Source: Rhodoferax sp. (GTDB lineage: Bacteria > Pseudomonadota > Gammaproteobacteria > Burkholderiales > Burkholderiaceae_C). From it: a stretch of DNA of 46,430 nt. Below, piece by piece: positions 2,702 through 16,938 of this stretch; positions within the stretch are counted from its first letter, which is position 1; each line of letters begins with the position of its first letter. Position numbers and translations under genes: made by a program. The notes under the pieces were generated by a model. The model saw nothing but the letters and a program-made list of their open reading frames with translations, searched no databases and was not told the origin of the DNA. The stretch is taken from contig JARXAM010000060.1 of NCBI GenBank assembly GCA_029865845.1, positions 1 to 46,430 on the forward strand. Direction: 5' to 3'.

Positions 2702-4693
2702 ATGTTTGAATCCTTATCGCGCTCTGCGAACCGACTGGCCGTTCCCGTGTTGGCCTTGCCCCGATCCGTCAAGCGTGTGGTGGTGGTGGCGTTGGATATT
2801 GCGCTGTGCGTGCTGTCGGTATGGCTGTCGCTCTATTTGCGCTTGGGGGACTTTGTGCCCTTGTCCGGTGCGGCGCTCTGGCCGGCAATCGCGTCAGTGC
2901 TGCTGGCATTGCCGCTGTTTATCCGGTCGGGGTTTTACCGCGCCATTTTTCGCTACAGCGGCATGCCCGCCATGGTGGCGGTAGGGCGCGCCATGCTGCT
3001 CTATGGGGTGCTGTTCGCCGGAGTGTTTACGTTTTGGGGCGTGACGGGGGTGCCGCGCACGGTGGGCTTGATCCAGCCCGTGGTGTTGTTGTTACTGGTG
3101 GGGGCCTCGCGTGCGGCGGCGCGTGTTTGGCTGGGCGGGCTGTACCACTTGCAGTTACGCAAAGCGGCTTTGCCCAGTGTGCTGATTTATGGGGCCGGCA
3201 ATGCGGGCCGCCAGCTCGCTGCTGCCATGGCCAACAGTCACGAAATCCGGGTAATTGGTTTTGTGGACGATGACGATCGCCTGCACGGCCACGTGCTCAA
3301 CGGGCAGCCTATCTATGCGCCCCAGATGGTGGGTGACATCGTGGCGGAGCGGCCGGTGTCTGCCGTCTTGTTGGCCTTGCCGTCAGTAAGCAGGCAACGC
3401 CGCAACCAGATCCTCACCTTCCTCAGCCAGTTTCAGGTGGCGGTGCGCACCCTGCCTGATTTGAGTGATCTGGCCAAGGGCAAGATCAGTCTCAGCGATG
3501 TGCGTGAGCTCGACATTGACGACTTGTTGGGCCGCGAGCCCGTGAAGCCACACGGCTTGCTGCTCAATCTCCATACCCGTGGCAAGACAGTGTTGGTGAC
3601 CGGGGCAGGTGGCAGCATAGGCAGTGAACTGTGCCGCCAGATTTTGCGCACCAGCCCGCGATGCCTCTTGTTGCTGGAGATGAGCGAATTCGCGCTGTAC
3701 CAAATTCACCGCGAATTGTTGGGCCTGGAGGGGGCAGACGGGGTCGAGATCGTGCCCCTTTTGGCGTCTGTGGTGGACCATCAGCGTGTGCAAGAAATCA
3801 TGGACACATGGTCTCCGCACACGGTTTACCATGCGGCCGCCTACAAGCACGTACCCCTGGTGGAGCACAACCCGGCCGAGGGCCTGCGAAACAACGTGTG
3901 GGGAACCCGCGTGTGCGCGGAGGCTGCCCTGCGCCATGGTGTGCGGAACTTTGTTCTCATCAGTACCGACAAGGCCGTGCGCCCGACCAACATCATGGGG
4001 GCCACCAAGCGACTCGCGGAAATGGTGTTGCAAGCGTTGGCCGAACAAGTGCAGGCGGGCAGCGCGGCGGGCGCTGCCCCGCACGGCGTGCGCACCACTT
4101 TTTCCATGGTGCGTTTTGGCAACGTCTTGGATTCGAGTGGGTCTGTGGTGCCCCTGTTTCGAGAGCAGATCAAGCAGGGTGGGCCTGTGACGGTTACCCA
4201 TGCGGAGATGACCCGCTATTTCATGACCATCCCCGAGGCGGCCCAACTCGTTATCCAAGCTGGAGCCATGGGCCAAGGGGGGGATGTATTTGTGCTGGAT
4301 ATGGGCGAACCGGTTCGCATCATGGACTTGGCGCGTCGAATGATCGAACTCAGTGGACTGACCATCAAAAGCGACAGCTACCCCATGGGTGACATCGAGG
4401 TGACGGTGCCCGGTCTGCGGCCTGGCGAAAAACTCTACGAAGAGCTCTTGATTGGCGACGACCCCAGACCCACCCAGCACCCGCGCATCATGCGCGCCCA
4501 TGAACAGTTTTTGCCGTGGGAGCCGCTCACCCAAAAGCTCCAGGCCCTGGCCCTTGCCATGGCGGTCAATGACGTGCCGGTGATTCGCACCATGTTGAGG
4601 CAGCTGGTCGTGGGCTACCAGCCCCAGGGTGATGTGGTCGATTGGGTGCATCTGGCGCAAGAGCGCGATGTGGCCGTGGCGGACCCGCGCTAG
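2702..4693 (+). CDS. Membrane-bound UDP-sugar 4,6-dehydratase (WbpM/CapD family)
   Basis: At 663 residues this matches the large membrane class of UDP-GlcNAc 4,6-dehydratases. Four hydrophobic segments lie between residues 25 and 135. A CoA-binding-like Rossmann domain with IYGAGNAGRQ begins near 162, and the catalytic SDR domain starts with VTGAGGSIGSE at about 299-309. The active-site region reads STDKAVRPTNIMGATK at 421-436: the usual SDR Tyr of Y-x3-K is replaced by Met432, with Lys436, as in WbpM-type enzymes. YHAAAYKHVPLVE and LRPGEKLYEELL are also family hallmarks. It forms the 4-keto-6-deoxy intermediate likely used by the reductase at 1161 and the transferase at 2097. A GAGG motif 7 bases upstream supports ATG 2702. 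A hairpin after the gene (4768-4792) probably ends the transcript. Confidence 0.92.
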   Translation: MFESLSRSANRLAVPVLALPRSVKRVVVVALDIALCVLSVWLSLYLRLGDFVPLSGAALWPAIASVLLALPLFIRSGFYRAIFRYSGMPAMVAVGRAMLLYGVLFAGVFTFWGVTGVPRTVGLIQPVVLLLLVGASRAAARVWLGGLYHLQLRKAALPSVLIYGAGNAGRQLAAAMANSHEIRVIGFVDDDDRLHGHVLNGQPIYAPQMVGDIVAERPVSAVLLALPSVSRQRRNQILTFLSQFQVAVRTLPDLSDLAKGKISLSDVRELDIDDLLGREPVKPHGLLLNLHTRGKTVLVTGAGGSIGSELCRQILRTSPRCLLLLEMSEFALYQIHRELLGLEGADGVEIVPLLASVVDHQRVQEIMDTWSPHTVYHAAAYKHVPLVEHNPAEGLRNNVWGTRVCAEAALRHGVRNFVLISTDKAVRPTNIMGATKRLAEMVLQALAEQVQAGSAAGAAPHGVRTTFSMVRFGNVLDSSGSVVPLFREQIKQGGPVTVTHAEMTRYFMTIPEAAQLVIQAGAMGQGGDVFVLDMGEPVRIMDLARRMIELSGLTIKSDSYPMGDIEVTVPGLRPGEKLYEELLIGDDPRPTQHPRIMRAHEQFLPWEPLTQKLQALALAMAVNDVPVIRTMLRQLVVGYQPQGDVVDWVHLAQERDVAVADPR

Positions 4694-4767
4694 GCATTGC
4701 GAGCCGCATACAGCCAAGACGGTGGCAGCGCATAGGTATCTCAGGCGCTACCGCCGACGTGGCTCTC

Positions 4768-4792
4768 CCAGGGTGCCAAGTTGGCACCCTGG
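4768..4792. terminator. Stem-loop between convergent genes
   Basis: A perfect 10-base-pair stem, CCAGGGTGCC and GGCACCCTGG, with a 5-base loop lies between the end of the dehydratase gene and the end of the minus-strand DUF1501 gene. Position and strength fit a bidirectional terminator. No long T-run follows on either strand, so termination efficiency is uncertain. Confidence 0.55.
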
Positions 4793-4803
4793 TGCGCTTT
4801 GGC

Positions 4804-6195
4804 CTAGCGCATGAACCCCAAGTTTTTCACCGTGTACTTCGATATCCTGGGAATGACGCTTCCCAGGTTCGCGGCCGGTACCCCAAACCATTGGGCCAAG
4901 GTCGCCATGTACTGATCCACACTGACCGAAGGCAAAAGTCGCCCGCTTCCCACTTGCTCAGGGTGGTCCACACCGATCTTGGGCACGCCGCCATACCACC
5001 GTTTGCCTTTGACGGCTCCACCCATGATCATGTGAAACGACCCCCATCCGTGGTCGGAACCATCGCCATTGCTGGACAAGGTGCGGCCGAAGTCCGAGCC
5101 TGTAAAGGTCGTCACTTGGTCGGCCACACCGAGTTTTACGGTTTCATCGTAAAAGGCCCGCATGGCTTTGGCAACTTTGTCAAGCAATGCATTGTGGTTG
5201 GTTGGCATGCCTGCATGGGTATCAAAGCCGCCCATCGTTGCGAAAAACACTTGCCGTTTAGGGCCGAGCTTTTCCCTGCCGGCGATCATTTTTGCAATGG
5301 TCTTGAGTTGATCCGCAAGGGGGTTGTCGAGAGGAAAATCCGATACCACTGCCGTCGAAAATGTAGGGTTGATCACATCCACAGCGTTGAACGCTTGCTG
5401 TGTCAGATCCCCATAGGCCGTGTGCATATAGTGGCTTCCTGGCTGCAGCATGATTTTCTTTATCGTGTCCGTCACCAGAGTGTTGTTGAAAAACTTGGCC
5501 AGCGGCACCGCGCCTGCGGGGCCCAGCCGATAGCCCGGCCCTTGGGTGCTGCCAAGAAAAGCGCCTCCAGCGACGTTGATGCCACTCAAAAGTTCGTTGG
5601 GTGCGTTTTGATCGGATATCAGGGGGAGGTCTGTCAACCGTCCACCAAACCCGGTCGTGGAGCTGATTTCCCCCTTGAGCCAGGTGACGGTTTGGTCGTT
5701 ATGCGAAAACAACTTGGCCGGTACGCCAATGCTGTTGTCGAATTCGAACTTGCTCAAGGGGCCGCTCAGTGTGCCAACGTTCATAAGCACCGCGAGCTTC
5801 TCGTCGTTAAACAATTGGTGCAGCGGTTCCAAACTGGGGTTCATGGCAAAGCTGCGGCCTGTGGGCCAGGCGTTCAAGGGTTTGAGCTCGAAGCGTTCGA
5901 GCGAGGTCCTGGTCAACGCGATGGTATTCAGACCGTCATCGATGGCACCGGGATCGGTGCGGACCTTCGAATATTCGTCGTAGCTGGCCTGGTCAAACGG
6001 AACAATGGTGTTGTAGTGGTCGTTGCCGCCCAACAAAAACACCAGTACCAAAGCCTTGTAGTCGCTGTTGGAAACTTGTGCTGCGGCGTTCGCCGTCAAG
6101 GCCAAGTTCATGACCCAGGGCGCAACGGCAGTCATGCCGCCCCATGCTGCGGAGTGGTTGAGAAATGCCCTGCGTGATAGTGATGAGTTTGTCAT
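4804..6195 (-). CDS. Tat-exported DUF1501 protein, copy A
   Basis: 463 residues. The N terminus carries a twin-arginine signal, SLSRRAFL, then a hydrophobic stretch and an ANAAAQ cleavage region near residue 39, so the folded protein is likely exported by Tat to the periplasm or beyond. The mature part has the DUF1501 hallmarks: FLLGGNDHYNTIVP, LFSHNDQT, and FTGSDFGRTLSSNGDGSDHGWG followed by GGAVKGKRWYGG. These resemble the metal-binding core of the sulfatase/alkaline phosphatase superfamily. No catalytic activity is established for the family as far as I know. It starts 3 bases after the DUF1800 stop and has no Shine-Dalgarno-like sequence, so translation is probably coupled. DUF1501 genes very often follow DUF1800 genes. 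It is paralogous to the gene at 8872; the first 69 residues of the two differ at a single site. Confidence 0.88.
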   Translation of the reverse strand: MTNSSLSRRAFLNHSAAWGGMTAVAPWVMNLALTANAAAQVSNSDYKALVLVFLLGGNDHYNTIVPFDQASYDEYSKVRTDPGAIDDGLNTIALTRTSLERFELKPLNAWPTGRSFAMNPSLEPLHQLFNDEKLAVLMNVGTLSGPLSKFEFDNSIGVPAKLFSHNDQTVTWLKGEISSTTGFGGRLTDLPLISDQNAPNELLSGINVAGGAFLGSTQGPGYRLGPAGAVPLAKFFNNTLVTDTIKKIMLQPGSHYMHTAYGDLTQQAFNAVDVINPTFSTAVVSDFPLDNPLADQLKTIAKMIAGREKLGPKRQVFFATMGGFDTHAGMPTNHNALLDKVAKAMRAFYDETVKLGVADQVTTFTGSDFGRTLSSNGDGSDHGWGSFHMIMGGAVKGKRWYGGVPKIGVDHPEQVGSGRLLPSVSVDQYMATLAQWFGVPAANLGSVIPRISKYTVKNLGFMR

Positions 6196-6198
6196 GAT

Positions 6199-7992
6199 TT
6201 ACTTTTGGATTAAATATTCAGGGCTGGCCAAAACCATCAATATCGCCACTTTCACCCGCAGGAGTGCATTGGTGTTCCCGACGGCGGGCTTGGGCAACAG
6301 CTCAATGGTTTGAACCATCAGGCTCACTGTGGGTTGCGACAAACTCTCATTGGCAAGAATAAGGTTCAACATACCGATTAATTCGGTAGGCTTGTCAGAA
6401 ACATCCAGAAACTGCCCGTAGTCGAACTGAGTATTCGAAGGGGCGTTATACAAAATACTAGCGAAAAAGTTAATCAACGAAATAACGCTTACTTCGTTTA
6501 CAATCTGAAATTCAGGTGCGCACAAAGCTTTCGCTTGTAGGCTTGAACCTGGTGGACTGTAGTTCGGTTCGAAGAAATTGAATACAGAAGGTGCCCGCCC
6601 TGGAACTTGTACCAAAGTTTCTGTTATTGAGGCCGAGATTCCCCAGATTCCGTTGGGGTGGTTGGACCTGGTCTTCAGCATACGCAATAGCTGGGTAAAT
6701 CGCAGCGCGGGTTCACGTAGCTTTCCCCAATCATCTCGGGGTTTGTCGATGTTGAGCGGGGAAATCGCTTCACTATCCAATAGTACGGCTTTGATAACCG
6801 CCCGCATATCGCCGCGCACGCCACGGCCATTGTTATTGAATTTTTCTGCAACACGTCTGATGTAGGCTCGACTAGGGTTGCTGGTGACCAGGCGCTGGAT
6901 CAGTTGCCTCCCAATAAAGGGCCCCACATTGGGATGGTTAAACAGCGTATCCAATGCAATTTTCAGGCTTTCTACGCCCAGGGTGTGTTTCTCTATGGTG
7001 ACTCCTAGGAATACCTTTTCTTCGGGCGCGTGGCGCGTCGCATCGTGCACCATGGGTTGGTTCCATCGTTTGATGCCCAGACTTTGGTTGGCCGCCCTCC
7101 AGCCGGTAAACACACGTGCCAGATTTTGAATGTCGGTATTGTTGTACGTTTCTTTGATAACACCGTTTTTGGGGCTGCCATCGATATTCAGCTCAATCGT
7201 GCCGATGGTGAATAGCTGCATGACTTCCCGCGCAAAGTTTTCATCGGGAACCCGTATGGCGACATTTGCTTCGTTGTAGAGTGCCTTGTTGTTGTTCATG
7301 TGGGACAGGTACCAGCCCATGGCGGGGCTAAGGGTCACGTCGTTCAGCAAATCGCGAAAGTTGCCAAAAGCGCCTTTTTCCAGCCAATCAAAATAGGCCG
7401 CGCATGCCAGCGCACGATCACCGCCGCCACCCAGTAGACCCCGTACATTCACCACCATGATTTGGGACAAGGCAAAGCCTACCCGCTTGCGAAGCTGGTC
7501 GGGGGCCGTGGCATAGGATTCCCATATATGTAGGTCCCATGCCCCCTCCGTATTCAAATTTGGTTGCGCCTGATAACGTCGCACATCGTCATAATGGGAG
7601 GCTACAGGTGCTATCTCAAATTGCTCATCAATCCAGGTTGAGCGCCATTTGGTGCAGAGTGCGTCAATATCACTGCCTTGTGCACCAAATGTGGCCTGCG
7701 CCAGAAAACGTGCGGCCGAACTGCGCGGCATTGACATGGGGTATTTCATACCCGTAGGCGTATTCACCCTCATGGGGGTCGCCAGCTCGGCAGACTGCTC
7801 GAAAAAGATATCTGCATTTCTGCTAGATCCGTCTGCATTCCACTCGCCAGGCCCTCCACCGGTGAGTCCACCCTCACTGCTGCCACCACCACACGCAGTC
7901 AATATGCTGGCCGACGTGACTGCCAATGCTGCTGTTTCTTGACGCACCGGCGGCGTGGCTGCCAGCTTACATTCTGTTTCAATTGCTTGCAT
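6199..7992 (-). CDS. DUF1800 lipoprotein, copy A
   Basis: 597 residues. The N terminus has a short hydrophobic run ending in the lipobox LTAC at about residues 32-35, followed by Gly-Gly-Gly-Ser, so it is probably a lipoprotein anchored after Sec export. DUF1800 motifs follow in order: RFLAQATFG near residue 93, LRKRVGFALSQIMVV, NFRDLLNDVTLSPAMGWYL, PDENFAREVMQLFTIG, VFTGWR, GPFIGRQLIQRLVTSNPS and GDMRAVIKAVLLD. The family is common in Proteobacteria and Planctomycetes next to DUF1501 and has no agreed function. An AAAGG ribosome site lies about 6 bases before ATG 7992. It is the first gene of the operon; the paralogue at 10258 has the same motifs and 595 residues. An identical C-terminal stretch of about 40 residues in the two copies reflects the homogenised tract. 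Confidence 0.88.
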   Translation of the reverse strand: MQAIETECKLAATPPVRQETAALAVTSASILTACGGGSSEGGLTGGGPGEWNADGSSRNADIFFEQSAELATPMRVNTPTGMKYPMSMPRSSAARFLAQATFGAQGSDIDALCTKWRSTWIDEQFEIAPVASHYDDVRRYQAQPNLNTEGAWDLHIWESYATAPDQLRKRVGFALSQIMVVNVRGLLGGGGDRALACAAYFDWLEKGAFGNFRDLLNDVTLSPAMGWYLSHMNNNKALYNEANVAIRVPDENFAREVMQLFTIGTIELNIDGSPKNGVIKETYNNTDIQNLARVFTGWRAANQSLGIKRWNQPMVHDATRHAPEEKVFLGVTIEKHTLGVESLKIALDTLFNHPNVGPFIGRQLIQRLVTSNPSRAYIRRVAEKFNNNGRGVRGDMRAVIKAVLLDSEAISPLNIDKPRDDWGKLREPALRFTQLLRMLKTRSNHPNGIWGISASITETLVQVPGRAPSVFNFFEPNYSPPGSSLQAKALCAPEFQIVNEVSVISLINFFASILYNAPSNTQFDYGQFLDVSDKPTELIGMLNLILANESLSQPTVSLMVQTIELLPKPAVGNTNALLRVKVAILMVLASPEYLIQK

Positions 7993-8037
7993 ACATTACC
8001 TTTACATTTTGCTTGCTCACTGGTATTCCCTGAATCT

Positions 8038-8176
8038 ATGTATTTGATGAAATGTGAAATACATAAAAAGTGATTTTTGTTATATGCCATTAACCTGTCC
8101 ATTTGTATTTTTAAAAGAGAGTGTTGGTGGCATCGTAACGATGCAAGACGATTTGGTTTTGTATGGTCAATATGAA
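8038..8176 (-). promoter_or_regulatory. Upstream region of copy A: inverted repeat and conserved block
   Basis: Upstream of the DUF1800 start lies an inverted repeat, ATGTATTT and AAATACAT, with an 11-base spacer (8038-8064). Farther up, about 8085-8176 is conserved with 12134-12228 upstream of copy B, including a small dyad CATCG-TAA-CGATG at 8132-8144, AATGGACAGGTTA on the minus strand and TCTCTTTTA. Conservation of non-coding sequence between otherwise diverged copies suggests it holds the promoter or an operator. I cannot assign -35 and -10 elements with confidence. The inverted repeat itself is not conserved in sequence in copy B, where a different palindrome occupies the same place. Confidence 0.45.
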
Positions 8177-8245
8177 CGTTGACTGCGCATAAAAACAAAA
8201 CCAGCGGGGGTGCGGACAAAATCTTCGACTACCTGGAGGTAGTTC

Positions 8246-8509
8246 ATTTATTCATACGAAGAGCGCATTCGTGCAGTCAAGCTCTACACAAAGCTCGGAG
8301 GGCGCCTCGGTGCCACCTTGCGCAAGCTGGGGTATCCCACTAAAAACACCCTCATAAGCTGGTATCGGGAGTACAAGCTGGATCAAAACTTGCAGGTAGG
8401 CTATTCCCGAGCGCCCAGCAAATACTCCGCTGAACAGAAACAGCGTGCAGTCCAGCATCACCTCGATCACGACCAATGCATTGCCTCTACCCTCAGGGCA
8501 CTGGGATAG
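8246..8509 (+). pseudogene. IS3-family orfA remnant (helix-turn-helix protein)
   Basis: The frame reads YSYEERIRAVKLYTKLG, then LRKLGYPTKNTLISWYREY, SAPSKYS-like PSKYSAEQKQRAV and CIASTLRALG before a TAG at 8507-8509. These are the N-terminal helix-turn-helix repeats of IS3-family OrfA. The usual ATG before YSYE is absent: a stop at 8240-8242 is followed by TTC-ATT-TAT, and the first conventional alternative start codon is TTG 8318. The protein normally continues past the ALG segment, so the end is also truncated. Non-functional. Confidence 0.85.
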
Positions 8510-8556
8510 GGCCCCCCCGCGTCACAATAGTTGTTGCCTCCTTAGAAATCAAGAAC

Positions 8557-8772
8557 ATGGGGGCGGCGATGAAGAACATCAGTGGCACGTTACGGACAAT
8601 CATTCTGAAGACGGAGTTGTTCTATCCAAAGAATTGGCAGGATGTTTCTGTTGATCAATTCATCGGAGCAGCGGATGCCTACATCCGCTGGTACAAAAAG
8701 AAGAGGATCAAGATATCCTAGGGTTCGCGGAGTCCCGTCGAGTACCGGGAAAGTCTTGGAATTAGCGTTTAG
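8557..8772 (+). pseudogene. IS3-family transposase orfB C-terminal remnant with in-frame stop
   Basis: The frame reads LKTELFYPKNWQDVS, then DQFIGAADAYIRWYKKKRIKIS, a TAG at 8719-8721, and on to GSRSPVEYRESLGISV with a final TAG at 8770-8772. This is the C-terminal end of an IS3-type integrase-like transposase, in which the stop replaces the Leu normally found in the RIKxSLG motif. Everything upstream of about residue 250 of the normal protein, with the catalytic DDE residues, is deleted. The terminal repeat of the element begins 4 bases after the last stop. Confidence 0.85.
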
Positions 8773-8871
8773 CCAGTCCAAGTTTTACTCCGCACCCCTT
8801 TCAGCATCACAGGCGCTACCGCCGACGTGGCAACCCCAGCGGGCAGGGGCAGTGGTCTGGTGCGCGTGTGC

Positions 8872-10254
8872 TTACCGCATAAAACCCAGGTCAGAGGTGT
8901 TGTAGCGTTTGATTCTGGGGATGATGGTGTCCAGTATCGAGGACGGTGCGCCAAACCACAGTGCCAAAGTAGACATGTACTGATCTACGCTGACCGAGGG
9001 CAACAGTCGCCCGCTTCCCACGTCATCGGGGCCGTCCACGGCGATGGTGGGCACGCCGCCATACCAGCGCTTGCCTTTGACGGCTCCACCCATGACCATG
9101 TGAAACGACCCCCACCCATGGTCAGACCCATCGCCATTGCTGGACAATGTGCGGCCGAAGTCCGAACCGGTAAATGTGGTGACCTGGTCTGCCACGCCCA
9201 GATCATCCGTCGCTTCGTAGAACGCGCTCATGGCGTCAGCAACCTGGGCCAGCAAGGCGTTGTGGTTGTCGGGCATGCCCGCATGCGTGTCAAAACCGCC
9301 GAGGGTTGCATAAAACACCTGCCGCTTGACCCCCAATGTATTTCTGCACGAGATCATGCGTGCAATGGTTTTGAGTTGGTCCCCGAGAGGGGTCGCAGGA
9401 AAACCGGCCACCGATGATTTCAAAAACGGTGGATTGACGACATCCACCGCATTAAACGCCTGCGCGGTGAGGTCTACGTAGGCGGAATGCATGTAGTGGC
9501 TTCCACTTTGCAGCATTAACTTTTTGACCGTTGCCGCAACCATATCGTTGTTAAAAAACTTGGTCAGTGGTACTGCACCCGATGACCCCAGTCGATAGCC
9601 TGGCCCTTGACTGCTGCCCAGAAACGCACCCCCGTTGAGGTTGATGCCACTCAATACGGTGTTCGGTTCATTTTGACTGGATATGAAGTCAGCCAATCTC
9701 CCGCCAAATCCGGTTTTGGAGTTGATTTCACCCTTGACCCAGGTGAGGGTTTGGTCGTTATGCGAAAACAACTTGGCCGGTACGTCTATGCCCTTGAGGT
9801 AGTTGGCTTTGGTCAAAGGGCCACTCAGTGAGCCAACGTTCATGAGTAGCGCGAGCTTCTCGGTATCAAACAGGCTTTTGAGCTTTGCCAATGCCGGGTT
9901 CATGGCAAAGCTGCGCCCTGAGGGCCAGGGGTTCAGCGGGTTGAGTTGGTGGGACGTGAGCGTACTTCTGGCCAACGCGATCGTGTTCAAGCCATCGTCG
10001 ATGGCACCCGGATCGGTGCGGACTTTCGCGTACGCGTTATAGCTGTCGAGGTCAAACGGAACAATGGTGTTGTAGTGGTCGTTGCCGCCCAACAAAAACA
10101 CCAGTACCAAAGCCTTGTAGTCGCTGTTGGAAACTTGTGCTGCGGCGTTCGCCGTCAAGGCCAAGTTCATGGCCCAGGGCGCAACGGCAGTCATGCCGCC
10201 CCATGCGGCGGAGTGGTTGAGAAACGCCCTGCGTGATAGTGATGAGTTTGTCAT
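8872..10254 (-). CDS. Tat-exported DUF1501 protein, copy B
   Basis: 460 residues, paralogue of the gene at 4804. It keeps the twin-arginine signal SRRAFL and ANAAAQ cleavage region, GGNDHYNTIVPF near residue 57, LFSHNDQTLTWVKGE, and the SDFGRTLSSNGDGSDHGWG block, so the predicted fold and export route are unchanged and both copies look functional. Differences concentrate in the middle and at the C terminus, where copy B ends in NTSDLGFMR against TVKNLGFMR in copy A. A shared GFMR tail suggests constraint on the C terminus. The start lies 3 bases after the DUF1800 stop, again without a Shine-Dalgarno sequence, implying coupled translation. The function of the family is unknown to me. Confidence 0.88.
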   Translation of the reverse strand: MTNSSLSRRAFLNHSAAWGGMTAVAPWAMNLALTANAAAQVSNSDYKALVLVFLLGGNDHYNTIVPFDLDSYNAYAKVRTDPGAIDDGLNTIALARSTLTSHQLNPLNPWPSGRSFAMNPALAKLKSLFDTEKLALLMNVGSLSGPLTKANYLKGIDVPAKLFSHNDQTLTWVKGEINSKTGFGGRLADFISSQNEPNTVLSGINLNGGAFLGSSQGPGYRLGSSGAVPLTKFFNNDMVAATVKKLMLQSGSHYMHSAYVDLTAQAFNAVDVVNPPFLKSSVAGFPATPLGDQLKTIARMISCRNTLGVKRQVFYATLGGFDTHAGMPDNHNALLAQVADAMSAFYEATDDLGVADQVTTFTGSDFGRTLSSNGDGSDHGWGSFHMVMGGAVKGKRWYGGVPTIAVDGPDDVGSGRLLPSVSVDQYMSTLALWFGAPSSILDTIIPRIKRYNTSDLGFMR

Positions 10255-10257
10255 GAT

Positions 10258-12045
10258 TTACTTTTGGATTAAATATTCAGGGCTGGCCAATACCATCAAT
10301 ATCGCCACTTTCACCCGCAGGAGTGCATTGGTGTTCCCGACGGCGGGCTTGGGCAACAGCTCAATGGTTTGAACCATCAGGTTCACTGTGGGTTGCGCCA
10401 AACTCTCATTGGCGAGAATAAGGTTCAGCGTCGCAATCAGATCCACCGGCTTGTCAGCCATATCGACAAACCGCTGGTAGTTGAATTCCAGGTACGGCGG
10501 GTTGGTGTTGAGAATAGATGCAAAATAGTTGATGACCGAGATAACGCTCACTTCACTTGCAATCTGAAACTCCGGGGCATATAAGGCCTTCGTCTGGATA
10601 TTGGTGCCTGCAGGACTGTGGTTGGGATCAAAAAAGTTGAATACAGAAGGTGCCCGTCCGGGGTGCTGCGTCACACCGGCATTTGCCATTGTGATACCCC
10701 ATATTCCATCGGGTCCTTTCGACGTGGGTTCCAGCATTCGCAAAAGTTGCGTGAACCGCAGCACAGGTTCCCGTAGTTTTCCCCATTCATCTCTGGGCTT
10801 ATCGATATTGAGTGGAGAAATAGCCTCAGGATCTAACAAGATGGCCTTGATCACTGCCCGCATGTCACCGCGAACGCCACGGCCATTGTCATTAAACTTT
10901 CTCGCTACACGCTCTATATACCCTGGACTGGGGTTGCTGGTTACCAGCCGCTGGATCAATTGCCTGCCAATAAAGGGCCCCACATTGGGGTGGTTGAACA
11001 GCGTATCCAATGCAATTTTTAAACTCTCGACACCCGGTGTTTTTGCCGGGATGGTGACCCCAAGGAATTTTTTCTCCTCCGGCGAATGGCGATTGGTGTC
11101 ATGAATCATGGGCCTGTTCCACCGCTTGATGCCAAGGCTCATGGCATCCGCCCTCCAGCCCGTAAAAACACGTGCCAGATTTTGAATGTCGGTATTGTTG
11201 TACGTTTCTTTTAATACCCCGTTTTTGGGGTTGCCATCGATATTCAGCTCAATCGTGCCTATTGTGAATAGTTGCATGACCTCCCGCGCGTAGTTTTCAT
11301 CGGGAACCCGTATGGCGACATTTGCCTCGTTGTAAAGTGCCTTGTTGTTATTCATGGTGGACAAGTACCAGCCCATGGCGGGGCTGAGGGTCACGTCGTT
11401 CAGCAAATCGCGAAAGTTGCCAAAAGCGCCCTTTTCCAGCCAGTCGAAATAGGCGGCCCCTGCCAGTGCACGATCACCACCGCCTCCCAGCAGGCTCTGT
11501 ACGCTCACCACCATGATTTGCGACAGCGCAAAGCCCACGCGCTTTCTGAGTTGGTCGGGCGCTGTCGCGTAGCTTTCCCAAATATGTTGGTCCCACGACC
11601 CTTCTATGGTGGTAATCTGTGCCTGATAACGTAGCACATCGTCGTAGTGGGACGACTTGGGCGGTATTTCAAATTGCTCATCAATCCAGCGTGAGCGCCA
11701 TTTGGCGCAGAGTGCGTCAATATCATTGCCTTGCACACCAAATGTAGCCTGCACCAGAAAACGTGCGGCCGAACGGCGTGGCATTAACTTGGGGTACTTC
11801 ACACCCGTCGGCGTATTCACAGTCATGGGGGTCGCCAGCTCGGCAGATTGCTCGAAAAAGATATCTGCATTTTTGCTCGATCCGTCTGCATTCCACTCGC
11901 CGGTCCCTCCACCGATGAGTCCACCCTCACTGCCGCCGCCACCACACGCAGTCAATATACTGGCAGACGTGAATACCAATGCGGCTGTTTCTTGACGCAC
12001 CGGCGGCGTGGCTGCCGGATTACATTCTGTTTCAATTGCTTGCAT
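10258..12045 (-). CDS. DUF1800 lipoprotein, copy B
   Basis: 595 residues, paralogue of the gene at 6199. It has the same short signal with lipobox LTAC followed by a Gly run, then RFLVQATFG, LRKRVGFALSQIMVV, NFRDLLNDVTLSPAMGWYL, PDENYAREVMQLFTIG, GPFIGRQLIQRLVTSNPS and MRAVIKAILLD. It has no stops or frameshifts, so both copies appear to be under selection. AAAGG precedes ATG 12045 by about 6 bases, as in copy A. It is the first gene of the second operon and lies downstream, on the same strand, of the LysR gene at 12406, with a 360-base gap. It is probably exported and membrane-anchored alongside the DUF1501 partner; biochemical role unknown. Confidence 0.88.
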   Translation of the reverse strand: MQAIETECNPAATPPVRQETAALVFTSASILTACGGGGSEGGLIGGGTGEWNADGSSKNADIFFEQSAELATPMTVNTPTGVKYPKLMPRRSAARFLVQATFGVQGNDIDALCAKWRSRWIDEQFEIPPKSSHYDDVLRYQAQITTIEGSWDQHIWESYATAPDQLRKRVGFALSQIMVVSVQSLLGGGGDRALAGAAYFDWLEKGAFGNFRDLLNDVTLSPAMGWYLSTMNNNKALYNEANVAIRVPDENYAREVMQLFTIGTIELNIDGNPKNGVLKETYNNTDIQNLARVFTGWRADAMSLGIKRWNRPMIHDTNRHSPEEKKFLGVTIPAKTPGVESLKIALDTLFNHPNVGPFIGRQLIQRLVTSNPSPGYIERVARKFNDNGRGVRGDMRAVIKAILLDPEAISPLNIDKPRDEWGKLREPVLRFTQLLRMLEPTSKGPDGIWGITMANAGVTQHPGRAPSVFNFFDPNHSPAGTNIQTKALYAPEFQIASEVSVISVINYFASILNTNPPYLEFNYQRFVDMADKPVDLIATLNLILANESLAQPTVNLMVQTIELLPKPAVGNTNALLRVKVAILMVLASPEYLIQK

Positions 12046-12405
12046 ATATTACCTTTACATTTTCCTTGTTCGGTAATATTCACCAAATGCATGCATTTAG
12101 TGAATAGTCCAAATACCTAGTAAAGGATTTTGGTAATATGCCACTAACCTGTCCATTCGTATCTCTAAAAGAGAATGTTTGTGGCGTCGTAACGATGCAA
12201 GATGATTTGGTTTTATATGATCAATATGAAAAACACAGACAATGTGGAGGTATTCGCCTGAGGGGGAAGCCGGCCTGATAGTGCGCTGTAGCCGGGTAGG
12301 TGCGGGCCTGGTCAGCCCCCGTTTGCAACATTGGCAGTGGTGATCTCGCGGTCCGCCAGAGTACGCGGCCCACAAATATCAATTAACAGGTCCCGTAACG
12401 GGCAT
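12046..12405. other. Intergenic region between copy B operon and lysR
   Basis: 360 bases without a gene. 12046-12228 is the upstream region of copy B and carries the palindrome at 12079-12104 and the block conserved with copy A. 12229-12405 is unlike the region above copy A. Just after the LysR stop lies a short dyad CCCGT-A-ACGGG (12392-12402) with no T-run, at best a weak terminator. No small ORF in this stretch looks real. Confidence 0.5.
12079..12104. promoter_or_regulatory. 26-base palindrome upstream of DUF1800 copy B
   Basis: The core AAATGCATGCATTT is a perfect 14-base palindrome; it is extended by TTCAC on one side and GTGAA on the other, giving 26 positions with one mismatched pair. 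It lies 34-59 bases upstream of the DUF1800 copy B start, where a dimeric regulator could act as operator. A LysR-type regulator is encoded next door, but the site is not a plain T-N11-A box, so the link is inference. Copy A has a different inverted repeat at the equivalent position. Confidence 0.45.
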
Positions 12406-13356
12406 TTACATGTTGGGCAGATCGTCACCCAGATCTGTCTCCAACTCCCCTGCATGTATGTCGCTAGACTGAACCATGGCAACCAGGTGCTCTGCGAGGT
12501 CGATAATGCGCGTCCTTTCCCTGAGCCATTCCCGCGAGTAACACACCACAAGCTGTCGCAACGCCCACTCATCCAGCAATCGCACTGTTTTGAGTCCTCT
12601 GCGCAGGCTGCCCTTGATCAGGCGTTCGGGCACAACCGCGCAACCCGCGCCCTGCTGGACCAATCGTGCAGCCGCAAGAAACCCATCCACATGAATACGC
12701 ACGTCCATCCGCGTTTTCAGCTGCAAGGCCTTGCCCGCCAAAAAATTGTGCATAGTCGACTTCATGCCTGTTGAAATCATGGGAAATCTGCACGCATCCC
12801 TGAACGAGGTATGGCTAGAGAAATCTGCACCCATGGCGGACGGCACAATAAACACCAGCCGCTCCATGCGGTAATCCAGATTCACCAGCTCGCTGTCCGT
12901 GTGTTCGCTGATCACCAGCCCCAAGTCGGTCTTGCCAGATTTAACCGCCGCCACGATATCCGAGCTTTGGTGTTCTTCAAGCTGAATGCGAAGTTTGGAA
13001 TTGGAGAACAAAAACGGTTGGATATCGTCAATGAGTGTGGTGGCGATGGAGGTGCAATTGGCAAAAAACCGGATGGGTAGCAATTCGTTTTTGCCGATGT
13101 TTCCCACTTCGGTGTGCATCAAGTCCAAAACTTGCAAACAGTTGCGCGCATGCCCCACCATCGCCAGGCCCGCGTCGGTAGGTGTCAGCCCGCGCGCATG
13201 GCGATGAAAGAGGGGTGTGCCCATGACATCTTCGAGGTTTTTCAGTCGGATGCTTGCGGACGATGTGGACATGAAGCAGCCAGCCGCTCCTACCCGCAGG
13301 TTTCCAGCGTCGGAAATTGCAACGAGGAGTTTCAAATCTACTATGTCGTATCGCAA
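12406..13356 (-). CDS. LysR-family transcriptional regulator
   Basis: 316 residues from TTG 13356. That start gives the typical beginning MRYDIVDLKLLVAISDAGNL, and GGAGG lies 6 bases before it. The frame also reaches another TTG at 13368, but with no ribosome site. The N-terminal winged helix-turn-helix continues with SASIRLKNLEDVMGTPLFHRHARG and LTPTDAG, followed by a LysR substrate-binding domain (about residues 90-290), so it likely binds a small molecule. The gene starts 12 bases after the stop of the membrane GGDEF-like gene, with its ribosome site inside that gap, so the two are probably translated together. Its closest downstream neighbour is DUF1800 copy B, a candidate target. Ligand unknown. 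Confidence 0.85.
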   Translation of the reverse strand: MRYDIVDLKLLVAISDAGNLRVGAAGCFMSTSSASIRLKNLEDVMGTPLFHRHARGLTPTDAGLAMVGHARNCLQVLDLMHTEVGNIGKNELLPIRFFANCTSIATTLIDDIQPFLFSNSKLRIQLEEHQSSDIVAAVKSGKTDLGLVISEHTDSELVNLDYRMERLVFIVPSAMGADFSSHTSFRDACRFPMISTGMKSTMHNFLAGKALQLKTRMDVRIHVDGFLAAARLVQQGAGCAVVPERLIKGSLRRGLKTVRLLDEWALRQLVVCYSREWLRERTRIIDLAEHLVAMVQSSDIHAGELETDLGDDLPNM

Positions 13357-13368
13357 ATCAGCCTCCAA

Positions 13369-14856
13369 CTAGCTGATATGTGCGTGTGCATGTGCGCGCG
13401 CGACTTTGAATATCGCATCGATATGCTGATCGTCGTCTGGAGGGATTGCACACTGGCCTATCAGAATATTGGGTTGTATAGCGAGATGCGGGGCCTGATA
13501 GGGCAACGACAAGGTCGCAAGAAGGTCTTGTGTGCTGTAACTGCTTGGCAGGTTTTCCAAAACACCAATCTCGTGATCCCAGAGTTTTCCAATGGGAATA
13601 TCAACGCCAAATATCATATTCAAACGTGAAGCCAATTCGGCGAGCATCGAGTTGACGGCTTCTCCGGAATGGCTTGCTCCACACATTGCTTTGAAATTAG
13701 AAATGATAATGAGCGAAAACCGATAGCTGGTTTTATCGGCCGCACTGCCCAACGTGTTTGACATGCAGCGAATGAATGCTGAGCGATTCAATAAACCCGT
13801 TGCTGCATCCACATCCATCATGCTGCTATGGGATTTTTGGAGTATTGCTTCGGTGTGGGTGTCTTCCAGCGCAATGCCACGCCAGCCATCAACAACCCCC
13901 AGTTTGTTATACAGTGGGTGACCAGAAACTACCCAATAGGATTTGCTGTATGTGTCCATGAATATCAGTGGGCGCTCTTTAAAAGCGGTTCCTGTGGCAA
14001 TGCAGTGACGAATGTCTTGCCACATGGACCGCGCCGATGGGTGCCGCTGCAAAGCTGGTTTGAGCGCCGTCGAGATTCGCTGGTTTGAAATACTCAGGTG
14101 CGCGCGCCTGGTAATGGAAAGGGGAAGCATGTTGGGTTTGCGCAGGTAATAATTTCGGTCTATTTCCCACACAAAAGCGTTGCTGTGCATGTCGAAGTCA
14201 CGGATCAGGTTCAGGACTTCTTCATGCAAGTGTCCAGCATGGCTCTCTACCCGGCAGGTCTCCAGCAGCGACCGCGAAAAGGCCAGTGACCCATAGATGC
14301 ACATCAGCGCATACGAGGCCATGAGTCCCGCGAGCTCAAAAAAGTACCGCGACTCGGTGCTGTACAAAGAATAAAGACTCGCCCCCCCGAGCACCACGCA
14401 ATATCCCACGACGGCCGGCGGCAGCGATGCCAGAGCGAATGAACCTGCGCCTATCATTCCCGTAATCACTGCCGCTATGACCAGTTGTACATCGAGGGGC
14501 GCCTTGGGATAAATATGCAAGGGCAGAAAACTCCACCCCACGGCCAGCAGGCAGGCGCTGATTACCGCGTGCCGTATGGCGCGTTGGCTCGATACTGTAA
14601 AAGGCGGCCTGCGTGTCCATATGTATACCGAATACAGAGCGAACAGCAATATGTACACAACCCAGCCAGTCAGTAATGCTGGGTTGGCAAAATCTTTGGA
14701 TATGGTAGTGACAAACACCGTATTGGCAGCATTGGCCACCATGGCTGCCGGCGTAAACTGGTTGATAAGCTGTAGTTGATTTGCACGCAATCTGCCGTGC
14801 GATACCATTTCAATCGGGCTTTTGCTGGAAATATTAAATTCTGAAAACTTTTGCAT
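13369..14856 (-). CDS. Membrane sensor protein with degenerate GGDEF domain
   Basis: 495 residues from ATG 14856, which has TAAGG about 7 bases upstream; longer starts at 14913 (ATG) and 14985 (TTG) lack a ribosome site. The N-terminal part has about five to six hydrophobic segments (residues 30-200), starting with LRANQLQLINQF, resembling the membrane sensor regions of some diguanylate cyclases. A PAS-like stretch with FVWEIDRNYYL and YWVVSGHPLYNKLG follows. The C-terminal domain begins with DAATGLLNRSAFIRCM, the start of a GGDEF domain, but the active-site loop reads KLWDHEIGV instead of GGDEF. It is therefore unlikely to make c-di-GMP and more likely senses a signal or binds GTP or c-di-GMP. 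It forms an operon with lysR and is divergent from an EAL gene. Confidence 0.78.
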   Translation of the reverse strand: MQKFSEFNISSKSPIEMVSHGRLRANQLQLINQFTPAAMVANAANTVFVTTISKDFANPALLTGWVVYILLFALYSVYIWTRRPPFTVSSQRAIRHAVISACLLAVGWSFLPLHIYPKAPLDVQLVIAAVITGMIGAGSFALASLPPAVVGYCVVLGGASLYSLYSTESRYFFELAGLMASYALMCIYGSLAFSRSLLETCRVESHAGHLHEEVLNLIRDFDMHSNAFVWEIDRNYYLRKPNMLPLSITRRAHLSISNQRISTALKPALQRHPSARSMWQDIRHCIATGTAFKERPLIFMDTYSKSYWVVSGHPLYNKLGVVDGWRGIALEDTHTEAILQKSHSSMMDVDAATGLLNRSAFIRCMSNTLGSAADKTSYRFSLIIISNFKAMCGASHSGEAVNSMLAELASRLNMIFGVDIPIGKLWDHEIGVLENLPSSYSTQDLLATLSLPYQAPHLAIQPNILIGQCAIPPDDDQHIDAIFKVARAHAHAHIS

Positions 14857-15178
14857 ATATTGCCTTAAGCGTTCAGTTATCCGTGAAGCCAAGTTGTTCG
14901 AATCGTAAGTCATTAAATGGGTTGGTTGTGTTACCAAATGAAACGTGCATTGAATGTTGGCAAACTCTTTGTTTGTGGATTTCAAATAGCTCGTGATAGC
15001 AGAGGCTGTTAACGTTAAAAAGCAGATAAAACTTATTAATTAATCGTTGGGGCCGCGAATGCTTTCTACATATCTGGCTTGTCGCAACTTCAATCGGTAT
15101 ATCAATACATATACCTCGTTTATGTCGAATTAGTTGACATCTTCTTTACGTTATGGATTAACTGCCGGATGAAATAAA
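14857..15178. other. Divergent intergenic region between GGDEF-like and EAL genes
   Basis: About 320 AT-rich bases that must hold promoters for both directions. On the plus strand TTGACA at 15134-15139 is followed after 16 bases by GATTAA (15156-15161), a plausible sigma-70 promoter for the EAL gene with transcription starting just before its ATG. TTAATTAAT and GTTAACGTTAA occur near 15007-15042. No small gene is convincing here. The base composition of 13370-15180 is visibly more AT-rich than the flanking housekeeping genes, hinting at a separate origin. Confidence 0.45.
15134..15161 (+). promoter_or_regulatory. Possible sigma-70 promoter of the EAL gene
   Basis: A consensus -35 element TTGACA (15134-15139), a 16-base spacer and a weak -10 element GATTAA (15156-15161) lie just upstream of ATG 15179, leaving only about ten bases of leader. 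The -35 is perfect and the -10 poor, so this remains a prediction. Confidence 0.3.
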
Positions 15179-15952
15179 ATGTCTTTGCCTCATGAATATT
15201 TTTCAAAGGAAAGCGGTGTTTGCGCAACCGTTGCACTGAACGAATATGACGTGTACTTTTGCTATCAGCCTATTGTGAGTTTTCCGGCTGGAAAGGTGGT
15301 CAGCTACGAGGCCTTGGTGCGCGGGGGAAATCACGAGAACGCGACAGTGTTTTTCCAACAATTGAGCGATGCAGAATTCACGCGATTTGATGTCGATTCC
15401 AAATACATCGCCATCGCAGACTATGTAAAGACCGGTGCCACGCGAGACTTGTCATTGAATTTCTCCACCAAGACGCTTACACGATTTGCCGATTTGCCGT
15501 CCATGCTGGACGATATGCTGCGAAGTTTGGGAATTTCTGTTAATTCTGTGATTATAGAGATTACTGAAACCGACGCGATAGAAGATATTGATAAATTTCT
15601 GAACACCATAGAGCGCTTGCGTGCCTTGGGTTTCCGCATCGCGATTGATGACTTTGGTGCCGGCTTTTCTGGTCTTTCCCTGTTAACGCACTGCGTGCCG
15701 GACATCATCAAAATTGATTCCTCGCTGGTACTCCATGTCAGTGCAGACAAGGTCAAGCAGTCCATCGTCACCGCGATTCGCATGATCGCGGCCGACTGTG
15801 GCATTGTTGTGGTTGCCGAGGGTGTCGAACATCAGCAGGACTTGCTGTGGCTTTTGGATGCCAAGGTCGACCTGTTTCAGGGCTATCTCTTTGCCAAGCC
15901 TACGGCGCAGCCTTCAAAGAGCGAGGCATGGGCCCGCCTGGGGTTGCGCTGA
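15179..15952 (+). CDS. EAL-domain c-di-GMP phosphodiesterase
   Basis: 257 residues that are essentially one EAL domain with no sensor domain. All the residues expected of an active enzyme are present: YEALVRG with Glu44, Asn93 in LNFS, Glu126 in EITET, the Asp156-Asp157 pair in IDDFGAG, Lys177 in IKID, Glu213 and Glu216 in AEGVE, and Gln233 in QGYLFAKP. It should hydrolyse c-di-GMP to pGpG in the cytoplasm. It is transcribed divergently from the membrane GGDEF-like gene, whose cyclase site is degenerate, so the two may form a sensor and effector pair by direct contact; that is inference. ATG 15179 has only a weak ribosome site. A small dyad (AGTGCT and AGCACT, 15952-15972, loop 9) at the stop codon may help termination before the convergent kinase gene. 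Confidence 0.9.
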   Translation: MSLPHEYFSKESGVCATVALNEYDVYFCYQPIVSFPAGKVVSYEALVRGGNHENATVFFQQLSDAEFTRFDVDSKYIAIADYVKTGATRDLSLNFSTKTLTRFADLPSMLDDMLRSLGISVNSVIIEITETDAIEDIDKFLNTIERLRALGFRIAIDDFGAGFSGLSLLTHCVPDIIKIDSSLVLHVSADKVKQSIVTAIRMIAADCGIVVVAEGVEHQQDLLWLLDAKVDLFQGYLFAKPTAQPSKSEAWARLGLR

Positions 15953-16002
15953 GTGCTAGCGCGCCCAGCACTTGTGTCTGTGTGGTGGTCCAGGCCCGGT
16001 GC

Positions 16003-16938
16003 TTAAGCCGCGCCCGCGTGCCCCAGCGCTGCACACGTTTGCGCATAGGTGGGGGGCTGGCACCCCGGTCTGGCGCAATTGATGGCGGCCGCTTGCATCG
16101 CCTCTTGTAGGGTGTGCGCCACGCGGTGTGCGCTGTCGGGGTTGAGCACCCAGTCGCCCAGGCAATTGCCCCAAAAGGTATCGCCCGCGCCCACGGTGTC
16201 CACGACCGTGGTGGGTGGGACGTCGGCCTCAGCGGTGTTACCGTCTACTTCGAGCCACGCGCCCTGGCCGCCAAAGGTCAGTGCAATGCGGCGGGCTCCC
16301 TGGTCGCGAAACACCGCTGCCATGGATGCCGCCCGGTCTCTGCTTGGGGCATGCACACCCAAAAGCGCCATGTCTTCGTCGCTGGCCTTGATCCAGTCGG
16401 CTAAGGCGGCCACTTGTTGCACCGCAGCGATGTAGGCTTCCAGATCGGCGGCGAGTCTGGGGCGCAGATTTACATCGACGCTGATCGTCCACCCCAATGC
16501 CTTGGCGCCTTGCAAAATATCCACAACCTTGCGGTGTTCCGGGGGCACCAGCAGCAACGAGCCGGTGTGCAGCACGCCCTGGGGCTGCCCTTGCAACATG
16601 GCCAGCACGCTGTCAGTGCTGTAGTCGCGGTCGGCGATACCCTCGCGGTAAAACCCATAGCTGGGCTGGCCCTTGCTCACTTGCACAACGGCCAAGGAGG
16701 TGGGCAGTCGGCTGGGGTGCGCCAGCACCTGCACACCATCGTGGTGGAGTTGCTGGGCAAGTTGCTGCCCAAACAAGTCGGTCGATAGCGGGTTCACATA
16801 GCCCGCCGGTGCGCCGCGCAACGCCGCTGCGCGCGCCATGTTGTAGGGGCTTCCGCCCATCATGGGGCGCAATGACCCATCGGGCTGCGCCAGGCAGTCC
16901 ATCAAGGCTTCCCCCAGTACCCAGATTGCAGTGCTCAT
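16003..16938 (-). CDS. PfkB-family sugar kinase (fructokinase-like)
   Basis: 311 residues, a ribokinase/fructokinase-fold enzyme that phosphorylates a sugar with ATP. It begins with WVLGEALMDC, has the glycine-rich GGSPYNMARAAALRG sugar-site segment and the anion-hole and catalytic-base motif DTVGAGDTFWG near residue 245, with SVDVNLRP in the middle. These are typical of fructokinases. It is the last gene of a minus-strand operon after the binding protein and permease; only 10 bases separate it from the permease stop. It likely phosphorylates the imported sugar. Fructose is the leading guess because the PfkB type and ABC layout match the Frc system of rhizobia (FrcBCAK), but the mutarotase and transaldolase genes on the other side leave other ketoses or pentoses open. 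Confidence 0.85.
   Translation of the reverse strand: MSTAIWVLGEALMDCLAQPDGSLRPMMGGSPYNMARAAALRGAPAGYVNPLSTDLFGQQLAQQLHHDGVQVLAHPSRLPTSLAVVQVSKGQPSYGFYREGIADRDYSTDSVLAMLQGQPQGVLHTGSLLLVPPEHRKVVDILQGAKALGWTISVDVNLRPRLAADLEAYIAAVQQVAALADWIKASDEDMALLGVHAPSRDRAASMAAVFRDQGARRIALTFGGQGAWLEVDGNTAEADVPPTTVVDTVGAGDTFWGNCLGDWVLNPDSAHRVAHTLQEAMQAAAINCARPGCQPPTYAQTCAALGHAGAA

Follow-up and report, generated by a model that had tools for sequence, protein, structure and literature searches.

The 46,430-bp window analysed here is one whole contig of a 2.74-Mb draft genome of Rhodoferax sp. (143 contigs), and it harbors two neighbouring copies of a two-gene module composed of a DUF1800 gene and a DUF1501 gene. 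In all probability these copies are a true tandem duplication of a self-contained envelope module, residing in a genome-specific low-GC island and later partly homogenised by gene conversion. Self-BLAST of the window has revealed a single long direct repeat, 80.1% identical over 3459 columns, whose limits (4738-12230) agree within a few bases with the extent of 4742-12228 given in a first-pass annotation (Table 1). On the minus strand the genes follow each other in the order DUF1800-2, DUF1501-2, DUF1800-1 and DUF1501-1. All four proteins score above the curated Pfam cut-offs of 27 bits for DUF1501 (PF07394) and 26.1 bits for DUF1800 (PF08811), and none of them is matched by an NCBIfam model at E <= 0.1. 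In both copies the two genes are adjacent, co-oriented and 3 nt apart (6195/6199 and 10254/10258, stop codon included), and both families are also present in the locus of 79 of 80 named relatives. Repeat, open reading frames (ORFs) and Pfam assignments thus bear out that the same operon occurs twice, but not that the copies follow directly in a row: 629 bp separate the repeat units, and 592 bp of this spacer lie inside the inverted ends of what resembles a decayed insertion sequence (IS), an IS3-like element.

Over all alignment columns the copies share 82% protein identity in DUF1800 and 76% in DUF1501, and their ORF translations contain neither a stop nor a frameshift. Comparison with the other aligned sequences has identified 65 invariant columns in DUF1501 (45 other sequences) and 46 in DUF1800 (48 others), and neither copy deviates at any of them; together with the SRRAFL and LTAC motifs found in both, this upholds the annotation of two intact copies with conserved motifs. 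The two copies are also each other's closest relatives, with a support of 100/100 in the DUF1501 tree, as expected from the proposed paralogous tandem duplication. The trees comprise 75 DUF1501 and 96 DUF1800 rows, some of them present twice through overlapping loci, and the DUF1501 relations are those among the rows listed. Next to the sister copies branches another pair of the same draft genome, at C140, followed by single pairs of Rhizobacter and Methylibium, and the tandem belongs to a divergent subfamily. Of DUF1800 and of DUF1501 the draft genome has four genes each, namely the tandem, the C140 pair and a pair at C43 that groups with those of congeners. The C140 pair (L069, 2822-6171 and 6485-7678), of the same subfamily as the tandem, is flanked on one side by a polysaccharide-lyase-family gene (PF14099) and on the other by a DoxX-containing frame and a solute-binding protein.

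The divergence between the copies is a mosaic. In 60-column windows identity ranges from 55% to 100% within the repeat unit, and the synonymous difference amounts to 0.04-0.17 at both ends of DUF1800 and at the N-terminus of DUF1501, compared with 0.29-0.86 in the other windows; this synonymous mosaic rules out a uniform divergence of the copies. The most conspicuous segment spans the junction of the two genes, where 378 bp carry only 7 mismatches (about 98% identity), and its edge is sharp, with 36 differing columns in the immediately preceding positions 5857-5990. The description of the copies as considerably diverged therefore holds outside such tracts and fails within this one. The proportion of synonymous differences (pS) is 0.051 in the junction tract, as against 0.584 and 0.557 outside. 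When 799 degenerate codons shared by the copies were compared, the longest run of identity comprised 48 codons and the best segment 110 codons with 3 differences (score 98), and each of these values was reached in none of 20,000 shuffles. Protein-level constraint is ruled out as the cause of the near-identical junction, because its silent sites are near identical too. A bounded tract of synonymous identity beyond chance indicates gene conversion, in this case presumably between the neighbouring copies. A further stretch of low divergence, which covers DUF1800 codons 1-120 (pS 0.144) and the adjoining upstream DNA (86% identity over 120 nt), probably reflects an older conversion.

Outside the tracts, the ratio of nonsynonymous to synonymous substitution rates (dN/dS) is 0.117 (0.084-0.158) for DUF1800 and 0.179 (0.123-0.241) for DUF1501, values that show both copies to be under purifying selection. 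This agrees with the earlier statement that both copies have been kept, selection being what retains them. The synonymous rate (dS) is 1.13 for DUF1800 and 1.02 for DUF1501 outside the tracts, and with dS about 1 the duplication is probably old and both copies constrained. Differences between the copies favour positions that vary in the family: outside the tracts they occupy 10 of 114 conserved and 97 of 263 variable columns in DUF1501, and 6 of 106 conserved and 73 of 306 variable columns in DUF1800, with areas under the curve (AUC) for column entropy of 0.78 and 0.68, respectively. At the columns with a conservation of 90% or more in the other sequences (143 in DUF1501 and 112 in DUF1800), 23 and 12 deviations occur in copy 2, and 25 and 9 in copy 1; since 21 and 9 of these positions coincide in both copies, the deviations would mostly be subfamily traits. 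The copy differences are thus consistent with drift under constraint, and the different specificities suggested by the first-pass annotation are not indicated, because the differences avoid family-conserved sites.

The proposed account is, therefore, that the copies would have been duplicated long ago and then partly homogenised by conversion between neighbours. Several observations weigh against it. As no genome with the single-copy state of this exact locus has been found, duplication in place is deduced from the sisterhood of the copies and the structure of the repeat unit. The source genome is a draft, 75.8% complete and in 143 contigs, and the arrangement has been seen once. The corresponding gap in congeners is not a clean empty site, but about 1 kb with an RF-1-domain frame that has no counterpart there in the window. 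Furthermore, the shuffle test takes codons as exchangeable, so that regional differences in silent rate are ignored.

Alternatively, the copies might have come to handle different substrates or partners, a common export signal being retained at the conserved junction as their bodies become specialised, which we consider unlikely. Such specialisation would be in keeping with the constraint on both copies, with the difference in cis upstream of copy 2 (a palindrome, see below) and with a near-identical signal-peptide region set against bodies that differ by up to 43% in full 40-codon windows, and by 52% in the last 23 DUF1501 codons; however, the differences concentrate at family-variable positions, no column invariant in other sequences has been lost by either copy, and the low-divergence segment of another array of the family (G212) lies in mid-DUF1800, so that likeness at the junction is no rule. 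A more elaborate form is doubtful: conversion would hold the C-terminus of DUF1800 and the export signal of DUF1501 in common, the enzyme bodies would drift to different substrates, and the copy-2 palindrome, located in a leader RNA whose predicted fold pairs the ribosome-binding site away, would time the expression of copy 2.

Duplication in place is itself questioned if two homologues were acquired with the island, side by side or successively. The GC content of the island, its absence at this place in three congeners, a dS near 1 and the transfer reported for one Agrobacterium vitis pair in the accessible text of PMC5122149 would all suit such xenologues, but the copies are mutually closest with full support, the repeat takes in flanking non-coding DNA on both sides, and a search of 399 genomes of the family with DUF1501-2 brought up no closer donor for either of them; such an acquisition is accordingly improbable. 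Passive repeats likewise show conversion and an IS remnant at their junction, as a redundant dosage duplicate in slow decay would, yet neither copy has a stop or frameshift, dN/dS is well below 1 and the terminal branches leading to the two DUF1501 copies are comparable in length (0.22 and 0.14), which leaves decay only a slight chance. As for an assembly artefact, the genome is a draft, and the longest exact match between the copies is 122 bp, a kind of repeat able to trouble short-read assembly. Most of the unit nevertheless differs by 10-45% per 60-column window, beyond what an assembler invents, unique DNA (the IS remnant) lies between the copies, and the flanking gene order is that of congeners, making an artefact very improbable indeed.

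Table 1. Features of the tandem and of the island that holds it (positions in the window).
Feature	Position	Strand	Basis or remarks
Low-GC island holding the tandem, 11.3 kb	4694..16002		GC; congener comparison
Repeat unit 1	4738..8176		Operon + 66 bp downstream + 184 bp upstream; self-BLAST
DUF1501 copy 1 (DUF1501-1), 463 aa	4804..6195	-	ORF; PF07394, 113.7 bits; Tat-type N-terminus SRRAFL
Probable converted tract, copy 1	5991..6368		DUF1800 3' end, gene junction, DUF1501 5' end including Tat signal; permutation test
DUF1800 copy 1 (DUF1800-1), 597 aa	6199..7992	-	ORF; PF08811, 263.9 bits; lipobox LTAC
Second low-divergence stretch	7633..8176		Probably older conversion
Decayed IS3-like element between copies	8207..8798	+	24-nt inverted ends (83%); OrfA helix-turn-helix and OrfB C-terminal fragments; interior missing
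Repeat unit 2	8806..12230		Self-BLAST
DUF1501 copy 2 (DUF1501-2), 460 aa	8872..10254	-	ORF; PF07394, 116.9 bits; Tat-type N-terminus as in copy 1
Probable converted tract, copy 2	10050..10427		Counterpart of 5991-6368; mismatch list
DUF1800 copy 2 (DUF1800-2), 595 aa	10258..12045	-	ORF; PF08811, 269.9 bits; lipobox LTAC
Near-perfect palindrome, 30 nt	12077..12106		32 nt upstream of DUF1800-2 start
LysR-type regulator	12406..13368	-	Pfam; next gene upstream, same direction
GGDEF-domain protein	13369..14985	-	27.3 bits against a cut-off of 23.8
EAL-domain protein	15179..15952	+	Pfam

The island stands out by its composition: in 2-kb windows GC is 0.50-0.53 from 6 to 16 kb and 0.585 at 4-6 kb, and 0.57-0.66 elsewhere. 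At the place of the island, about 1.0-1.1 kb separates capD from pfkB in three congeners (L131, L132 and L136), and all three carry between these genes the RF-1-domain frame, presumably ArfB-like, which in L136 has a Pfam match; an exact-match search of the window for its core peptide found nothing. Three other loci of the genus (L133-L135) have capD without pfkB in the stretch and are thus uninformative on the island, which appears to be genome-specific. The contig itself belongs to the genus, because glutamine synthetase (glnA) is 98% identical to that of two congeners and a sugar permease and an ABC protein are 95% and 90% identical to those of G001; capD is 73-76% identical to its three best congeners. 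Regarding a plasmid origin of the island, no near DNA match was found in 72,556 plasmid records; DUF1501 relatives, none of them reaching 60% identity, occur in 14 plasmid records, and there is one weak phage match. The Vibrio maritimus plasmid NZ_CP090440.1 has five DUF1501-like places, with a single DUF1800-DUF1501 pair at the stretch inspected, and a Photobacterium plasmid record is unannotated at its DUF1501-like stretch. Within the island of the window, the GGDEF-domain protein shows by eye no GGDEF/GGEEF signature and has WDHEI at its place, and the adjoining EAL protein retains EAL and DDFGAG.

The element between the copies matches the HTH_Tnp_1 model over its cut-off (7.6e-6) and rve_2 under it (4.7e-4), and the IS3 model NF033516 at positions 1-61 and 323-357 of 369, under cut-off, as fragments may be. 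No target-site duplication was seen by eye at the element, and no further copy of the spacer was found in the draft genome. The palindrome upstream of copy 2 is absent from copy 1 and from the C140 pair, and its core is unique in the draft genome at up to 3 mismatches. It was matched by none of 100 shuffles; the best palindromes found for copy 1, the C140 pair and Methylibium were matched by 14, 89 and 83, and a 19-nt palindrome far upstream at the Rhizobacter locus likewise by none. The predicted leader RNA of copy 2 folds with a z-score of -3.99, the stretch before the start codon being paired, and that of copy 1 with -1.27 (single sequences, no covariation test); no Rfam family matched positions 4600-16100 at gathering scores. 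Given a palindrome in copy 2 alone, the two copies may possibly be regulated differently.

In the genus, DUF1800-2 has matches in 76 of 103 genomes, many of which are fragmented drafts, and two distinct matches within 6 kb were seen by eye only in this genome; in G082 two pairs lie about 14 kb apart. In the family, DUF1501-2 has matches in 212 of 399 genomes (E <= 1e-40), and an ORF search has revealed arrays in at least five other genomes, with two units in G472, G411 and G280 and three in G212 and G387. This tally is a lower bound, at most four candidates having been scored per genome. These doublets and triplets resemble the Rhodoferax tandem in that the two-gene unit is repeated head to tail at a spacing of 3-4 kb, but they belong to other subfamilies, and in two cases the copies are older and orthologous by position: in the DUF1501 tree two old copies are common to G472 and G411, and three, by position, to G212 and G387. 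The G280 copies are sisters in that tree and their relation is left unresolved by the DUF1800 tree. Tandem duplication seems, on these tree relations, to have arisen several times in the family. Among the tested arrays a comparable low-pS segment exists only in G212 (0.09, between two units); none was seen in G280, G472 or G411, and the one G387 pair tested has pS dips of 0.22-0.33. Loci L111 and L112 display the three head-to-tail DUF1800-DUF1501 units that are orthologous by position in two genomes, with the mid-DUF1800 block of low pS between two units of G212.

The 80 named nearest loci comprise 75 with one of each gene, four with two DUF1800 frames and one with DUF1501 alone. Two of the four (L150 and L158) have a second DUF1800, full or cut off, directly after DUF1501, and the others have a split frame and a distant weak match; L150 presents the order DUF1800-DUF1501-DUF1800 at 6143-11182 in a betaproteobacterial draft genome. 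Around these loci 69 upstream and 74 downstream frames were selected by a crude rule, by which some may be false, and all were scanned except one upstream frame of 1955 aa. No constant third neighbour emerged among the resulting 68 upstream and 74 downstream frames: the commonest upstream family is CoA_trans (6 of 68), the other families listed occur at most twice, and downstream no family exceeds 2 of 74. Since no neighbour recurs, it would seem that DUF1800 and DUF1501 form the working unit by themselves.

With regard to function, R8 and R9 of the twin-arginine translocation (Tat) motif are invariant in 47 aligned DUF1501 sequences, and export is predicted. The lipobox LTAC, identified by eye in both DUF1800 copies, corresponds to LxAC in the family consensus. 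Structure models were made for the copy 2 proteins; that of DUF1501 has a predicted local distance difference test score (pLDDT) of 75.5 and a predicted template modelling score (pTM) of 0.82, and that of DUF1800, with a pLDDT of 81.0, is mostly helical. The best 50 of 495 Protein Data Bank (PDB) rows (E <= 10) for the DUF1501 model are entries that we take, from their titles and usual classification, to be members of the alkaline-phosphatase superfamily, which includes sulfatases, LtaS and YejM/PbgA. Besides this weak likeness, DUF1501 has invariant Asp, His and Ser residues, of which D59, S164, D322, H324, D378 and H379 are candidate metal ligands or nucleophile, assigned by order only. It is tentatively proposed, as a reading that we hold to be possible but short of probable, that DUF1501 is exported by the Tat route and acts, as a metal-dependent enzyme of alkaline-phosphatase type, together with a lipoprotein-like DUF1800 on an envelope ester or head group, and that the two copies represent dosage or two expression regimes and not two substrates. 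In such a model the exported enzyme and DUF1800, its attached partner, would work alone as a pair; their target in the envelope would be an ester of phosphate or sulfate, or the head group of a lipid or glycan; and the copies would supply dosage or, with a palindrome in copy 2 alone, two expression regimes. The structural comparisons also speak against this assignment. The Foldseek matches of DUF1501 are weak, with none at E <= 0.001, a best value of 1.1e-3 and TM-scores of 0.16-0.33 by query length, and DUF1501 differs from the superfamily in that no member of it was found by sequence in the PDB, the only PDB sequence match of its profile being weak and to another molecule (8fit_A, E 0.045). 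For the DUF1800 model, no match to solved structures was obtained (best E 0.77).

COG5267 is taken here to be DUF1800. It is listed with COG4102, both as uncharacterised, in the top 50 of SAR202 COGs by abundance (PMC6946804, accessible text). The closest case in print is that of A. vitis, for which the available part of PMC5122149 describes, in slightly ambiguous wording, two DUF1501-DUF1800 pairs in tandem in one genome, as in Rhodoferax, and notes a Tat motif on DUF1501. There, however, one pair was reportedly transferred with a chitin synthase gene, whereas the Rhodoferax copies are sisters. According to the same source, chitin synthase genes accompany the pair in Brenneria, Pectobacterium and Dickeya; no chitin synthase is among the 17 window proteins scanned. 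In the portions of PMC6653060, PMC6329079 and PMC3597751 at hand the domains are merely listed, and nowhere in the accessible text of these five papers, drawn from the open-licence PMC literature, is a function given for DUF1501 or DUF1800. On a Rhodoferax tandem duplication with gene conversion, the matches listed in the literature search held nothing useful.

With arrays in five or more further genomes of the family and the A. vitis case in print, this one is not unique; it is a well-preserved, conversion-marked example, and its duplication follows the usual course of duplicate genes, here in a family that is little understood. Both DUF1501 and DUF1800 occur widely and, as far as the accessible text of the cited literature goes, their function is unexplained. 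A genome with four pairs, two of them neighbouring, offers natural paralogues for parting shared from copy-specific roles.

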